Of a DNA stretch of 64,000 bases, positions 133 to 53,127 are shown one piece after another. This DNA is from Tachypleus tridentatus (taxonomy: Eukaryota > Arthropoda > Merostomata > Xiphosura > Limulidae). The stretch covers positions 10,788,001 through 10,852,000 of the forward strand of contig NC_134830.1 in assembly GCF_004210375.1 (NCBI RefSeq), given 5' to 3'. A model generated the notes under the pieces. That model was not told the DNA's origin, did no database searches, and worked only from the letters and a program-made list of their open reading frames with translations. Within the stretch, counting starts at the first letter, position 1; every line of letters begins with the position of its first letter. Made by a program: the position numbers and the translations under genes.

Positions 133-196
133 GTGACTTAGTTTGCCATTTAACACTCCTACGAAAAAAAATATTTACATCCACTAAAGTGATTTT

Positions 197-213
197 GGGG
201 CCTATCAGGCCCC
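197..213. repeat. GC palindrome, left subterminal copy
   Basis: GGGGCCTATCAGGCCCC is a near-perfect 17-bp palindrome in an otherwise AT-rich element. It lies 43 bp inside the left terminus, downstream of the transposase stop. Related copies lie at 2176-2192 and 2362-2378. It may be a transposase-binding or hairpin site at the element ends; this is inferred only from position and repetition. Confidence 0.7.
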
Positions 214-242
214 ATATATTTTTCCAATAGAAACACAGTGAT

Positions 243-1854
243 TTAGCAACATTCATTACAAACAACTTTAGAATGGCTCTGACAAACATTTTTTTTACAA
301 TTTGAGCAAACAATTTTCGACTGTCTATCTTTTGATCTGCCGCACAAATGGTATCGTCCTCTTTTTGCCCTCTTTGCAGGCGGTTCACATGAGGTTGTTT
401 TGTCATTATCTTTGCAGCAAATTTCTTTGATTTCAAGCACCAATTGCCGTATAAGTTCTCTTCTGGCTCTTGATTTATGTTGACGAAGAAATTATGGATG
501 TTTTGTCGAGTATAGAACGAAAGCATTGTACGCAGCAAGATCTAGAATGTTATAGAATATGCAGACTGACCAGCGCTTTGATCGCCTCTTTGTTGTATAA
601 TATCTCACCAGTTGATCGAGAGTGTCGACACCTGCCTTCGTTGCATTGTAAAGATTGACGATTTCGGGCTTTCCATTCTCTTCTACTTCATTAGACTGAT
701 GCTGAGAACTCAGTAGTAGTACATATTTTCCTGGTTTGTCTGAGTGCCTGAGAAGAGTGATGTCGTCATGGTAGAAAAACTTTGGTGATAACTCTCTAGA
801 TTTTGCATTTATTTCAGGAGGCAGGAAGGTTCTTGATTTCCGTATGGTTCCAACAAGTCCTGTTCTTTTTGTTCGTAGGTACTTGGCAAGTGTCATTGTT
901 GTGAAGAAATTATCTGTCGTTATTGTCCTTCCTTTTCCAAGAAATGGCTGACTCAGTTCTCTTACTATTCTTTCTCCTTGATTTGTTTCTGTCGTATTTC
1001 CAACTTTTCCAGTATAAATTTGAGCGTTGAGGAGGTAACTTGTCTTTGCATCTGTTAGGCACCAAATCTTTATTCCGTATTTGCCTGGCTTTGTCGGAAT
1101 GTATGTTTTGAAGCCATCTCTTCCTTTGATGTTACATAGTTGTTCATCCACTGTCAGGTATTCGCTTGGGTTGTAACTGTTTTTGCAATTTTCAATGAAA
1201 AAATTCCAGACTCCAGATATGGCGGCATCTTTGATTTCTCTATTTCTTTGAGAATGGATGTCAAATCTGATTTTTGAGCACATTTTTTTGAATTTGTCTT
1301 GTGTAATCAGTTTTCGCAAAAATGGCAAACCGAATTCGGTTGAAAACATTTCGTCTATCGATGCATTTTTTGGATTTGCTTATTCCAAGGAAAAGATTAG
1401 CTGCGATCCATTTCCAGAGGTCTTCTTCAAAAATTGGTTCTTTCATGACGGTGTTTGTTGAGTGAATGATCTGTTCCATCATATTATCAGAAATGAAAAT
1501 TTTGAATGTTTCGAATGGTGTAGAGACTCTTGGAGCAGCTTGCCTTGTAATGCCTGGGTTCCCATTGAATATATTGAGAGCTGCGGTTCTCCTGTTGATC
1601 CTTGAAGGTGTTGTTGAATAACTAAAATTCTTATCTTTGGACAAAAGTTCGTTCACTGGCATCGTAGTAAGATCTTCTTGATTACTTTCTTCACTTTCAG
1701 AAGGGTACGGCGCGATTTGTTCATCATTTTCGGCTTCAGAAGGATCATCATCACAACTTTCAGAGTAGTCTTCGACATTATCATGTTCACTTTCATCGTC
1801 GGATGGTTTTGTCAGTAAATGTACAGCTTCATCAAGAGATATCATTTTTGACAC
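243..1854 (-). pseudogene. piggyBac transposase (PGBD4-like), three frameshifts
   Basis: The gene encodes a DDD transposase for TTAA-specific cut-and-paste. The first frame (1854-1261) begins MSKMISLDEAVHLL, has an acidic N-terminus and runs into the start of the catalytic domain (WKWIAANLFLGISKSKK). The second frame (1349-492) carries the RNase H-like core with all three catalytic aspartates: YLTVDEQL (codon near 1148), TTDNFF (near 914) and GVDTLDQL (near 626). The last frame (443-243) gives the C-terminal cysteine-rich zinc domain, with CSNCKKNVCQ and VCNECC, then a stop. Three frame changes are seen, near 1345, 494 and 460, so no intact product is made. Length and domain order match PGBD4-type transposases. 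The start was chosen as the first Met after the promoter; the Met three codons in is equally possible because the TATA box is so close. Confidence 0.92.
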
Positions 1855-1874
1855 GGTTTGAAGATTTCAGCTCC

Positions 1875-1979
1875 TATATATATATAGGATTTGTGAATTC
1901 TTCTAGAATATTCTAGAAGCTTCAAGAATATTCTAGATTATTCTAAATACTTCTGTAGAGTTTCTAGAATGTTCTAGAA
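1875..1979 (-). promoter_or_regulatory. TATA box and heat-shock-element array of the transposase promoter
   Basis: TATATATATATA lies at 1875-1886, about 20 bp upstream of the first transposase ATG. Immediately upstream come seven consecutive, perfectly alternating TTC/GAA pentamer units at 1901-1933, centred every 5 bp. An eighth imperfect unit follows, then in-phase TTCs at 1941 and 1951, then a second perfect cluster of four units at 1962-1979. Alternating nTTCn/nGAAn is the established binding site of heat-shock factor trimers; three units make a minimal site. The order, TATA proximal and HSEs just upstream, is that of a heat-shock gene promoter. Function is inferred, but the motif match is direct. 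Confidence 0.8.
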
Positions 1980-2132
1980 CAGGCGTGGGCAAACTAGGCA
2001 ATAATCAGGACCGTCTAAAATTATTGTTGGAGTAGAGTTATTATCCTAAATATCCATCTTTTGAAAAGAAGTTGTAAAATTAATATATTTTACTATAATT
2101 TGCTTTTTCGGTTGCCCAGGCCTGTTCTAGAA
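1972..2132. mobile_element. hAT-like MITE nested in the piggyBac promoter
   Basis: A 145-bp element (1980-2124) begins CAGGCGTGGGCAAACT and ends in the inverted match TTGCCCAGGCCTG. CAG...CTG ends with a GGGCAAACT-type terminus are typical of hAT elements. It is flanked by an exact 8-bp duplication, TTCTAGAA (1972-1979 and 2125-2132), the length expected for hAT insertion and fitting its known TA-centred preference. The interior has no coding capacity. The duplicated target is itself a heat-shock-element unit pair. Confidence 0.85.
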
Positions 2133-2175
2133 TTATTCAGGAAATAAATAAAGTCATTTTTATGTTTTTTGATCT

Positions 2176-2378
2176 GGGGCCTAATAGGCCCCAAAATACC
2201 CTTAGTGGATGTTTAAAAAAAAATTAAATATTATTTCGCAAATGTCTGAAAAGTCAAAGTATTATTGCTACTTAAAATATAAAGGGATAGGGTCAGTTAA
2301 TGGCAATTTCATTTAAATACAAAATTATTAGCCTAATATTAATAACCTTTCAAGTTGCTCTGGGGCCTATTAGGCCCC
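2176..2378. repeat. right subterminal inverted repeat with two GC palindromes
   Basis: Palindromes GGGGCCTAATAGGCCCC (2176-2192) and GGGGCCTATTAGGCCCC (2362-2378) sit in the right end of the piggyBac element. The first, with the adjoining CTTAGTGGATGT stretch, is an inverted counterpart of 168-213 at the left end. The second stands next to the right terminal repeat. So the right end has two copies and the left has one, an asymmetric arrangement of possible transposase sites. Confidence 0.7.
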
Positions 2379-2398
2379 AATTTTCGTAGGAGTGTTAA

Positions 2399-7670: not shown

Positions 7671-8910
7671 TTATTTTCAACTCCAGTGTTTTCTGCAAGA
7701 CTTAACTTTATTGATGCAAAAATGTTCATGAAGAAACTTGAATGTTAAATTAAAAAAAAAAACGTCACAGGTACAAAACAAAAAATAATCTTCGTGCAAC
7801 TGTAATATATTCAAGGTGCAATTCAGTTTATTCAGGTATATTAAGTATTATAAAATTTTCATTGCATCAGAGGTAAAAATAGGTTGTTCTGTTGCTATTT
7901 AGTACAATTCAAGCTTCCTATACACTTCTGTTTGAATATTTTAAACCTATTCTGTTTACATATTGATGCTAGATGATCAAGTAAGGAATTGCAAGATATT
8001 TTAACCATACTTTCGTTCATAAAATAAAGAGATATTTAGTGCTCTAATGAAATCCGTAGCCAACTTCCCATCAATATAAACCGCCAAACAAGTTATTATA
8101 GAAAACACAATAACGTGACTGTAGTCTGTCACACTACCATAATAACTACTAGGTCATAGTAAATTATCTTTTAAATCATTAAATATTTTCTACTATTTTC
8201 TCCAGACAGGAAAACATTTGAAAAATACAAGTAACAAAAAAGTACGGTCTCTCGTGTAGTTTCGAAATCAAACTACACGAACAGAAACAATAAACAACAT
8301 TGTAATAAAACTGGACATACAACTGGGTATGTTGTTCTTGACGAAAAAAATTCAATGAGTGAAAAATATATATAAGAGTAAATAATAATAATAATTAGCC
8401 ACAGGAAAATCCCGTTTGAAGAAATACTACGAAAACAAAGTTTAATTAATATAAATTGCAGTTACCAAGTGGGCACTAAAAACAAGAACAAGAGTGCATG
8501 GTTATATCACGAACAGTAAATTGGAAGGGTGATAATTGGTAGAGGGTATATAAACTGCAAATAGACTAGAAGATATGAGATGAATGGTTGTTTCTTTTGT
8601 GTAAAAACTGTAGGTAAAGGGGAAAATTTGATTTTGATGTGTATATCGCAGATACAAGTGGTACATAATGTGCGAGAGCTAAATTCACACAGGCGGTTGT
8701 TGCTCTAGTCTAGAACCTAGAATATCCATTACAGTCAAAGCAGCACAAAACTATACACTATGGCAAGTGGTACCATCGTAAAACATAAATACATGGAGCA
8801 CTGATCCGCATAACTAGTTCATAATTCCACTCAAACATGAGTAAAAAAGGCGTGCACACATTACTGTTGGTAAGCAAGACGAGTCATGGTTGTTACAGTA
8901 GAGGGAACAC
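7671..8910. other. no recognised gene
   Basis: AT-rich, no supported exon. The only structure is a perfect hairpin at 8252-8280, listed separately. Confidence 0.4.
8252..8280. repeat. perfect 11-bp hairpin
   Basis: TCGTGTAGTTT (8252-8262) pairs exactly with AAACTACACGA (8270-8280) across a 7-nt loop. The TCGTGTAGTTT word resembles the tail of the tRNA-derived SINE (CTCGTGTAGCTTT), so it may be a residue of two opposed SINE ends. Confidence 0.7.
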
Positions 8911-9366
8911 TTTGAAAACAAGGAGTAATGGTATGTCGATATTGAAAACAAGGAGTAATGGTATGTCGATATTGAAAACAAGGAGTAATGGTATGTCGAT
9001 ATTGAAAACAAGGAGTAATGGTATGTGGATATTGAAAACAAGGAGTAATGGTATGTGGATATTGAAAACAAGGAGTAATGGTATGTGGATATTGAAAACA
9101 AGGAGTAATGGTATGTCGATATTGAAAACAAGGAGTAATGGTATGTGGATATTGAAAACAAGGAGTAATGGTATGTCGATATTGAAAACAAGGAGTAATG
9201 GTATGTGGATATTGAAAACAAGGAGTAATGGTATGTCGATATTGAAAACAAGGAGTAATGGTATGTGGATATTGAAAACAAGGAGTAATGGTATGTCGAT
9301 ATTGAAAACAAGGAGTAATGGTATGTCGATATTGAAAACAAAGAGTAATGGTATGTGGATATTGAA
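8911..9366. repeat. 30-bp minisatellite, 15 units
   Basis: Fifteen head-to-tail units of exactly 30 bp with the core GAAAACAAGGAGTAATGGTA. Almost the only variation is one C/G position (GTCGAT versus GTGGAT). Units 6 to 13 alternate G, C, G, C, which suggests spread of a 60-bp dimer. Because 30 is divisible by three, one plus frame and all three minus frames stay open across the array and make spurious proteins of 170-197 residues. Near identity indicates recent amplification. Confidence 0.97.
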
Positions 9367-12300
9367 TAAGGAAGCACACGATGTGGTCAAACGTTCATTC
9401 AACGATACTTTTTGACAGTTGAAAAACATTTTTGTATAATAAACAACCAACTTAAAGATAACAGGTATATGTTGGTACAAAATCACACGAATGTTATTTT
9501 GACTGAGGACATATGTGATAGAAGCAAAGGGTAAATAACTGTTAGTTGCATCTGATTTTTACATTTACGAGCATAGTATTAGTATTAATATAACACAGGT
9601 TTAAACAAACAATAATTATTGCTGCTGGTATGAAAAGTAAAGGTAAAAACAGAAACTCAGTATTGAAGTAAATAACACAGATACAAATGGTAAAAAAATT
9701 ACAGTGCATATATATTATATAACAAACAATTACACGTAGAAGAAAGTGTGACTGATGGTAATATCACAGCACACTGTGCGCTTTTCATTGTTGTTGTTAT
9801 TAGCACACGCGAAAAACAAAAGCAGGTCTTATATGATGACTCCATTTATTGTTTATAATTGTTAACAATTCTCCAAGATTATCCACAATTTGCTGTATGA
9901 AACTCAACTCAAACCTTGCAAAATACATGCTCGATGCATCATTACGTAAGCATTAAAACATTTCACTGGAAATACCATTCAAAAAGTCCACAGACCTTGT
10001 TTTGTCTCGAGCAAAATTATACTCTATAACTTAACAGTTTAAGAGAGAGTACTCTAAACGAATAAGTAAATAATCTTGGAGAGTAAATCCAATCTGACTT
10101 GAGTGTTGTTCCATGACCACAATAACAAAGTGTGTTGACAAAAGAAAATTTCATTCTAAATAATCGAGAGCAAAGTCAGTTTTTCGTAATGCCTTAGTTA
10201 AAACCAATACAAACTAGGTTAAAAATCAGATATTTGCAGAACACTTTTCGGTTTCCTTAAACACTTTTTACTAGCAAACTAATTTAACGAGCCTTGTAAA
10301 CAATCATAACGCAAGTGTTCAACACCATGAGAGTCAAGTAGAGATAAATCAGAACAGAAAGTGAAGTGATAACTACTGACCACAAAACACCTGCACTTTA
10401 CCGACAGTTGTTTACAGAAACACTCGCAAAAGAGATGTACGTCTTAATCGTAACATATTAAATGATATGCTTGAAATCATGTAGTCATAGTGCTCTGAAA
10501 CGTAGACATGTAGAAATGTGAGCAGCATCAGAACGTGCTTCTATTTATACAAGAAAAATATACATGTACTGTGCATTTTGTATTACTTGGTTTAAACGAA
10601 AGTTGATTTATGTGAAGGTAATATGATATTGAAGCTTGTATCATTATTGATGAGATATAAAAATAAACAGTAGTTCATAATAGGGCTTCTTGTTTAACAG
10701 TTACATGTCTACCCTAACTAGTCTGCCCTCACAATTTATTGGTTTATAATGCATGACAGCAATAGTGTTCAAAATAGTCGATAAGACTGGCAGTACTTTA
10801 TTCAATCCTGATATATAGATAAAAAATCTATGCAAGAAATGTCTCGTATAAAATCGATTGTTGGACTTAAGCCATCAACATCAGTGGTTTTTGTTTCTCA
10901 GCTTCTTACTGTAGTAGAAAGTTGGACAAGTTTATTCAAGATCATCACATTTCTAAAACCAAAACACAAGCAATATTTCCGTTTCCATTAATAATTTTAA
11001 ATGTATTAAGCGTTGTTGCCAGTAAGAACATTAAGGGAATATCTTACATACGTAACTAGTAACCACCCTAAAGATAATGGCTTGTTGATATTCAGTAATT
11101 TCCTACACTACCTTTCATAGATTATGTAGTCATTGTTCACAGGATTGTTTACACATCTAAATAAACAGCTTCCTACCCCAGATCTTAAAGCACGCCTCTT
11201 ATTTGGTATTCAGTATAAAATACCTCGAAGCCTCCAAAATGCTGTTACAAAAAGTGTAAATGCAGAGTTCATTTTCACTGCAGTAGTCTTCAAAAGAATG
11301 TAAACAACTGACACGACACAACATCACAATAACTGCTAGTATTTATACAACTTGTCCATTTTCTCCACATACGTGCAACTGATAATTCCATTACATCACA
11401 TGAATGCGTTGCAACATCATATTGTGATATACTTGTATAATTTTTTAGAGCATTATTATTGCCAAGTGTTTGTTATTTTATAGCAATGCATTAACGCCAA
11501 ACAAGACAAAAGTAACGGGAAAAACTTAGTTTGTTGTATTAATCTAATATTCATTAAGCTTTATTATTCATTCAGCTTAGCTTCTAGGTCGACAAAAATC
11601 GGTTTTGCACAAACTGCCATTTATTTAGACTTAGAGTTTCGTCCTCGTGTTTCATTGACGTTATAGTCGTAAAAAACAAACAAACTATTATACCAAATTG
11701 AGATATCTAATTGCGTTTTACCCATGTTTGGATAATGTTTTTAAAAACTTCAAATATCTTTTTATTTCCACAATGTGTAAACCTTTAATTCAAATATTAA
11801 CAGTCGCATAAATTTCATTTCATCATTCGAAACTGCATTTAGAAATAACAAAAATAATAAGCATCATCAAAATTCCACACGAAAAATAACATTTACACTT
11901 ATCACCATAAAATATTCAATGTTACCATTTAGTCCTCAAACTGCATGGAAACTTACTTCACTGTTAACAACGACTACTAACTTCCTTAATCTCTCTTTTA
12001 GCAACATCAAATCAATACAGTTAGAATCCTTCAATTATTATTTTTATTAGATTTTATTAATTTAACTCCTTGTACCTTCTAATATTTTGACATCGTATTA
12101 ATACAAACGTTTCTTCTTAATACCACCTACAGTTTAATTTTGGCTTCACTTGACTATGTCATCTAACTTGTTTTATTTAAAACGCCATATAGCTATTGAT
12201 ATAATAAAACCGGTTTCAACAACTTGCACATTCTCTTGTAAACACTGACGAACGTTACAAAATAACGAAGCGTTTGCCAACGACTATATCCTTTTTCATA

Positions 12301-52054: not shown

Positions 52055-53127
52055 TATCAAACTGATATTTCACCAGTGTTATCTTAAAATTTCCCATTCA
52101 TCGTTGCCGTTACGACGCCTCTGGTTGTTCTTCTAATCTCCGTAGTTCTCCTCTACCTTCCGTTCAAAACCCGCTTATAGTGTCGTTCTAACGTACTTTT
52201 CAGAACACTCTCAAGTTGCCAACTACGTCACGAGGCACGAAAAAACGCCTTAAATAGCACTCATGGGCCTTTTCACTGTATTCTAGTGCAACAAATAGAG
52301 AATATAGCTCTCATATTCTGACGCAAAGTTTTAACTTTCAGATCTTTATTAAGCACCAAACGTATTTAAGAGTAATAAACATTTGTTTTTATAAAAGATT
52401 AAAGGAAAATTGTGTAACATGCTTAACGAAAAGTCAAAAGAACATTCTAGAAATTTTGCGGAAGTGCACAACCATATAACACCTATTATGTAACCTTTAT
52501 ATTGCGATATAATATCCCGTAGCGCCATCTAGTATCTCGAATATTGTTTTCAATAACAAAAAGAAATATCCTGATGCATTACAGCCCCATCTATCAGAAA
52601 GAATATTATTTATAAAAATATAAAAAGGAAAATCCTGAAGTATTAACAAAGTTTAAGTTTTCCCGATATACAAGTCCAAACTATTTAAAAGTTGTATTTT
52701 AAACAATTTAAAGTTATAATTAAATATATTAAAATCTAGTTGATTGTAAACTTGTTTAGACCTTGCCCTACGTGTTCAAAGTTACGGACAAAGCTATTTC
52801 AAATATTTGATGAATTTAAAAATTATAACCAAAACTCAATCAACGAGAAAATAAACATATTTTTTAAATTTAAGTTTACTCGATAAAATCGGAAAAAAGC
52901 AATATTACTTGTGTGCTTATTTCGGAAATATAGCTCATTATGACAAAAATCACACAAAGTTCACACTTCTTCGTTAGAAGTGCTTGTAATAATTCACCAT
53001 ATGACTATACAAACTAATCCACAACTCGCAATGATTTCAAAATATATTCTTTTTCAGTACAAGTACATTTAGTATTTCTTTCCATTCGTACATTTTGTTT
53101 TACATATTAAACCATGTATTGTTCTTC
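52055..53127. other. no recognised gene; one CTCF-like site
   Basis: AT-rich. TAGCGCCATCTAG at 52520-52532 matches the core of the arthropod CTCF motif (AGATGGCGC on the other strand). A single match of this length could be chance. Confidence 0.25.

Follow-up and report, generated by a model that had tools for sequence, protein, structure and literature searches.

A heat-shock-like promoter on the transposase gene of a piggyBac family in Tachypleus tridentatus suggests that stress may switch the enzyme on

A dense array of alternating TTC and GAA units stands upstream of a broken piggyBac transposase gene in the genome of Tachypleus tridentatus, which raises the question of whether this transposase is, or was, transcribed from a promoter of the heat-shock type. 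The window referred to here is the whole stretch of DNA that was analysed, 64 kb in length (C6:10788001-10852000 of a 2.17-Gb genome). This genome gave 19 matches to the coagulin family, which is not known outside horseshoe crabs, whereas 14 control genomes, bacterial and archaeal where named and hence no test of that restriction, gave none. An initial annotation of the window had described seven uninterrupted units at 1901-1933 and four more at 1962-1979, located upstream of a TATA box and the transposase start, and had proposed that control by heat-shock factor (HSF) would tie transposition to stress. Both sets of coordinates were borne out on re-reading, and the positions of the TATA box (1875-1886) and of the ATG (1843-1845) were verified. 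The comparisons described below support this interpretation at the level of sequence: the heat-shock-like promoter on the transposase gene suggests that stress may switch the enzyme on.

The array was shown to reside in a piggyBac element, belonging to what is designated here as family A, for which the following features were assigned in the window:

150..2398, minus strand: piggyBac element of family A, 2,249 bp, with TTAA at both ends and the transposase on the minus strand
150..167, plus strand: left terminal inverted repeat with TTAA, 100% complementary to 2381-2398
2381..2398, minus strand: right terminal inverted repeat with TTAA, partner of 150-167
249..1845, minus strand: transposase gene encoding a DDE_Tnp_1_7 (piggyBac) domain, disrupted in the window copy, with open pieces at 492-1349 and 1261-1845
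1843..1845, minus strand: start codon, the N-terminus resembling that of a second family (family C, below) as judged by eye
1875..1886, minus strand: TATA run, 14 bp from the array
1901..1933, minus strand: proximal array of seven perfect heat-shock element (HSE) units, TTC/GAA at exact 5-bp steps
1962..1979, minus strand: distal HSE cluster of four perfect units, its 18 letters recurring unchanged in family C
1980..2124, no strand: probable nested hAT-like MITE of 145 bp with inverted ends, flanked by TTCTAGAA at 1972-1979 and 2125-2132
2175..2193, no strand: subterminal palindrome GGGGCCTAATAGGCCCC, with related palindromes at 195-214 and 2361-2379

The piggyBac element of Trichoplusia ni and piggyBac-like elements are characterized by a TTAA target, terminal inverted repeats and a DDE_Tnp_1_7 transposase with a cysteine-rich tail, and family A resembles Trichoplusia ni piggyBac in each of these respects. 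Both ends of the window element read TTAACACTCCTACGAAAA, the inverted repeats being perfect over 18 bp and both starting with TTAA, as is typical of the superfamily, and both ends could be matched by pattern in 19 of the 30 loci retrieved on the basis of transposase similarity, at a spacing of 2,053-2,267 bp. The transposase of the window copy is broken by a frame shift and a stop ahead of its C-terminal part (the protein match spans 249-1376, with one stop inside). Other genomic copies possess open frames of more than 500 residues, with the matched part free of stops, and the open frame of copy L010 matches PF13843 with an E value of 4.3e-68, the match extending across the entire profile (positions 1-349 of 349). 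No relatives of the transposase were found among viral contigs. Elsewhere in the window, a tandem array with a unit of roughly 30 bp, probably a minisatellite, was observed at 8837-9429, with two open frames on opposite strands.

HSF sites are defined by a 5-bp spacing between units. Measured by runs in which at least three TTC/GAA units alternate without interruption every 5 bp, the element carries a run of seven and a run of four, and when a single degenerate unit is allowed the proximal array comprises nine units, of which eight are perfect, and reaches position 1943. The order outward from the transposase is ATG, TATA run, 14 bp, proximal array and distal cluster, with about 55 bp between the array and the ATG. 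The second-longest TTC/GAA run within the 64-kb window consists of three units (52440-52452), and sixty 64-kb sequences simulated under an order-3 Markov model together contained 51 three-unit runs, a single four-unit run and nothing longer. Genome-wide, the perfect seven-unit pattern gave 183 matches, a figure in which arrays of at least eight units may count repeatedly, and the reversed pattern gave no match in the whole genome. STAT or BCL6-type sites, the half-sites of which are separated by 3-4 bp, were set aside, as the half-site gap is 2 bp here.

Host heat-shock genes were shown to provide a close geometric counterpart. In a cluster of tandem hsp70 genes on C8 (132.82-133.79 Mb; an open frame of 639 residues in one of the genes), all nine promoters read, which are near-identical tandem copies and hence not independent, carry TTCGAGAAACTTCGAGAA, representing four contiguous units, 13 bp before TATAAATA, compared with 14 bp between array and TATA in the window. 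The transposon promoter therefore has the host geometry with more units, i.e. 8 plus 4 as opposed to four; the hsp70 leader is longer, and no sequence relation between the two was seen beyond the motif. The array had been rated as stronger than many host heat-shock promoters, a statement that holds against these nine tandem hsp70 genes, the sole host set sampled. Three other HSP70-family genes display runs of three, two and one units, respectively. As regards the presumed activator, the genome encodes one complete profile match to the HSF DNA-binding domain and four partial ones.

In light of this anatomy, we consider it highly probable that the transposase promoter of this piggyBac family is of the hsp70 type, responsive to HSF and kept by selection on an active lineage. 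The plan consists of a distal cluster of four HSE units, a proximal array of about eight, 14 bp, TATA, a very short leader and the ATG. Cooperative binding of active HSF trimers to the phased units would, upon heat or another protein-damaging stress, recruit transcription from the TATA box; alternatively, HSF-driven transcription would occur in those germ cells that have active HSF. With the promoter under HSF control, transposase supply, and hence transposition, would track the stress response. A variant that is compatible with this reading holds that HSF does use the array, with a natural signal that is developmental (germ line or early embryo) as opposed to heat. HSF is active in gametogenesis of other animals and, to our knowledge, a transposon profits from germ-line activity only; we regard this variant as possible, although tentatively so.

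The conservation of this hsp70-type plan was examined in 30 loci, including that of the window, which represent a sample unbiased by array content, as they were picked by transposase similarity and not by the array. The initial annotation had named the absence of the array from other copies as an outcome that would speak against it, and the opposite was found, with the array being present in all 30 loci. Among the 28 loci with an ATG anchor, the longest perfect run comprises seven units in 11, six in three, five in six, four in seven and three in one, and the two loci lacking this anchor contain a seven-unit run somewhere in the locus. The alignment of copies that had been proposed as a check on a fixed array position returned a distance of 14 bp from the last TTCnnGAA to the TATA in 23 of the 28 anchored loci; the exceptions are 24 bp in three loci (in which the last dimer is mutated), 2 bp in one, and one locus in which the TATA was not found. 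The distance from the distal flank to the TATA is 86 bp in 15 of the 21 copies with both anchors (28 aligned), the remaining six showing 66 (two copies), 83, 107, 56 and 25 bp. Two copies with 75-79% protein identity (C1:179918735 and C19:3307779) were considered as a separate subfamily, an assignment that was dropped: the C1 copy is 95% identical to family A at the DNA level over 1.9 kb, with an array 20 bp shorter, and thus represents a decayed family A copy and not independent evidence.

Fifty promoters were aligned in total, i.e. 28 transposase-fetched, 17 derived from array-containing searches (found with the array in the query and therefore biased towards its presence) and five chosen as divergent. 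Deviation from the majority across these 50 was 1.4% for the HSE core, 1.6% for the spacers, 1.4% for upstream non-coding DNA and 1.1% for coding DNA. Single family A copies decay without visible constraint, and since HSE cores vary as much as spacers and flanks, selection is argued solely from the comparison of family A with family C. The low divergence among family A copies suggests that the family spread recently.

The majority sequence of the same 50 promoters includes the 145-bp repeat that adjoins the distal cluster, the two ends of which are recognizable in 40 and 47 of the 50, respectively. These ends form 13-bp inverted repeats (CAGGC.TGGGCAA) with one mismatch, and the flanking TTCTAGAA pair is probably an 8-bp target duplication, the MITE, which we take to be of hAT type, having inserted into an HSE dimer. 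A pattern search for the empty site, allowing up to two mismatches, gave no matches, and a search for further copies of the repeat, in which 40 of 256 first-look candidates were scored, included family A copies.

A markedly diverged counterpart was identified in family C (C3:76825910), the transposase of which is 40-45% identical to that of family A and the element of which has TTAA at its start and end. Its promoter consists of a distal TTCTAGAACATTCTAGAA, with the same 18 letters as in family A, an eight-unit proximal array (seven perfect), 11 bp, TATATAAAT, a short leader and the ATG, and five to seven perfect units are present in all three promoter copies read, deletion derivatives apart. 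The family C start codon was placed by position and N-terminal likeness, because the frames from the aligned ATG extend for 74, 32 and 12 codons before a stop in the three copies. The TATA-to-ATG distance in families A and C is 32-41 bp, predicting an unusual leader of about ten bases or fewer. Alignment of the A and C promoters scored 45, compared with a maximum of 18 in 200 shuffles, a test with some circularity, as HSE arrays will align with one another in any case; non-coding DNA further upstream scored 16, compared with a mean of 17.7 and a maximum of 27 among shuffles. More weight is given to the two-cluster plan and the TATA spacing common to both families than to the promoter alignment score. 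Families A and C form one clade with a FastTree local support of 1.000, the underlying alignment being rough and anchored to family A. Fifteen loci representing about three other families of piggyBac showed at most three contiguous units in the fetched stretches; for decayed copies, these covered about 1.2 kb upstream of the domain, in which the promoter position is approximate.

Three further family C loci, L108-L110 (C11:93116684, C1:180295302 and C4:84856656), were observed to be internal-deletion derivatives. All three derivatives read share a deletion that starts within the HSE array and took the TATA and the N-terminal part; 45 of 96 protein matches have the extent of these derivatives, with the remaining frame mostly open.

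The comparison with family C also bears on the proposal that the array represents a neutral minisatellite with a tandem unit of 10 bp, born by slippage near a promoter and hitch-hiking with the family. Several observations in family A are consistent with this: array length is unstable, with several copies 10-61 bp shorter, lengths shift mostly by 10, 20 or 30 bp between copies, such whole 10-bp steps being frequent, as a tandem repeat predicts, and in young copies the HSE core is no better conserved than the spacers. However, the units remain in HSF phase, the distance to the TATA is nearly equal in family C, whose other upstream DNA is unalignable, and host hsp70 spacing differs by just 1-2 bp, which leaves the minisatellite explanation improbable. 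The related concern that the array might be a private expansion of one lineage was likewise answered in the negative, since family C has a matching two-cluster promoter. Whether families A and C conserved the array by common descent or re-built it independently, either course would require selection.

Long HSE arrays were also encountered in a repeat unrelated to piggyBac. Among the 183 seven-unit matches, 78 lack the T at one spacer position of the piggyBac array (57 sites by count). Seventeen of these 57 non-A sites were read: ten were compared mutually, among them two local groups of three nearly identical duplicates, and seven sites on C13 were examined after masking of the array. All 17 represent a single further dispersed repeat, most copies of which are about 80-90% alike. 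Beyond the motif and short chance pieces, no similarity to the piggyBac element was found. The arrays of this unclassified family (loci L041, L049-L064 except L056, and L113-L119; HSE arrays near TATA) contain 7-25 units, the longest having 25 with 19 perfect. A TATA follows the array after 8-13 bp at six (including a pair of near-duplicates) of the seven loci at which the spacing was determined, and after 42 bp at the remaining one. A decayed reading frame (MASRSCKHSP...) follows the array; its protein showed no Pfam family above the cut-off, and a protein query with this frame produced 19,052 first-look candidates (150 scored). Among the other 40 of the 57 sites, C9:86754285 looks like a variant of family A.

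As both the piggyBac element and this repeat carry an array before a TATA, two unrelated elements share the hsp70 plan. A broader scenario, which we put forward as speculative and rather less probable than not, is that unrelated transposons of one host (the piggyBac A and C clade and the very abundant unrelated repeat) gained hsp70-type promoters independently, such that nearly all long HSE arrays would be transposon-borne, stress bursts would mobilize several families at once and the host heat-shock response would be rewired by their dispersed arrays, in the way that Helitrons rewired that of Caenorhabditis. The same repeat bears on the suggestion that the units are the transposase's own binding sites, serving as an internal recombination enhancer or autoregulatory site: piggyBac elements do require subterminal sequence and the repeats are palindromic and about 500 bp or less from the element end, but separate subterminal palindromes (195-214, 2175-2193 and 2361-2379) are available as candidate transposase-binding repeats, the array is tied to the TATA and not to the ends (ATG-to-end distance of 553 bp in family A and 407 bp in family C), and the motif also occurs near TATA in the unrelated repeat and in host hsp70, making this suggestion very unlikely.

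HSE control of a transposable element is known from ONSEN of Arabidopsis. ONSEN is reported to be a heat-activated retrotransposon (PMC8376061); it differs from family A in being a plant LTR retrotransposon as opposed to a transposase gene. For Helitron1_CE of Caenorhabditis, two papers describe RNA that rises on heat shock in an HSF-1-dependent manner, a transposase gene with 14 HSEs in its promoter region and copies that disperse HSEs across the genome (PMC6765114, PMC6927752). Helitron1_CE resembles family A as a DNA transposon with many HSEs in its transposase promoter, and differs in being a nematode rolling-circle Helitron and not a DDE/TTAA element, and in that its heat induction is demonstrated, whereas family A is known from sequence alone. 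From the promoter anatomy, together with the Caenorhabditis precedent, HSF binding, stress-raised transcription and an effect on transposition would be expected in family A.

HSF-driven transposase genes and stress-responsive transposons are thus already known. A native HSE-driven piggyBac promoter was not found among the matches listed for the open-licence papers searched, including those for Trichoplusia ni piggyBac and piggyBac-like elements; within the same scope, no earlier account was found of an hsp70-plan promoter on piggyBac that is common to two distant families. With families A and C, heat-shock promoters of the host type would be known from a second class of DNA transposons, having been retained between families at 40-45% protein identity. 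The old idea that transposons time their jumps by stress signals can now be put to a direct test in an animal whose transposon families are defined, and an insertion may deliver a ready-made heat-shock promoter to nearby host genes.
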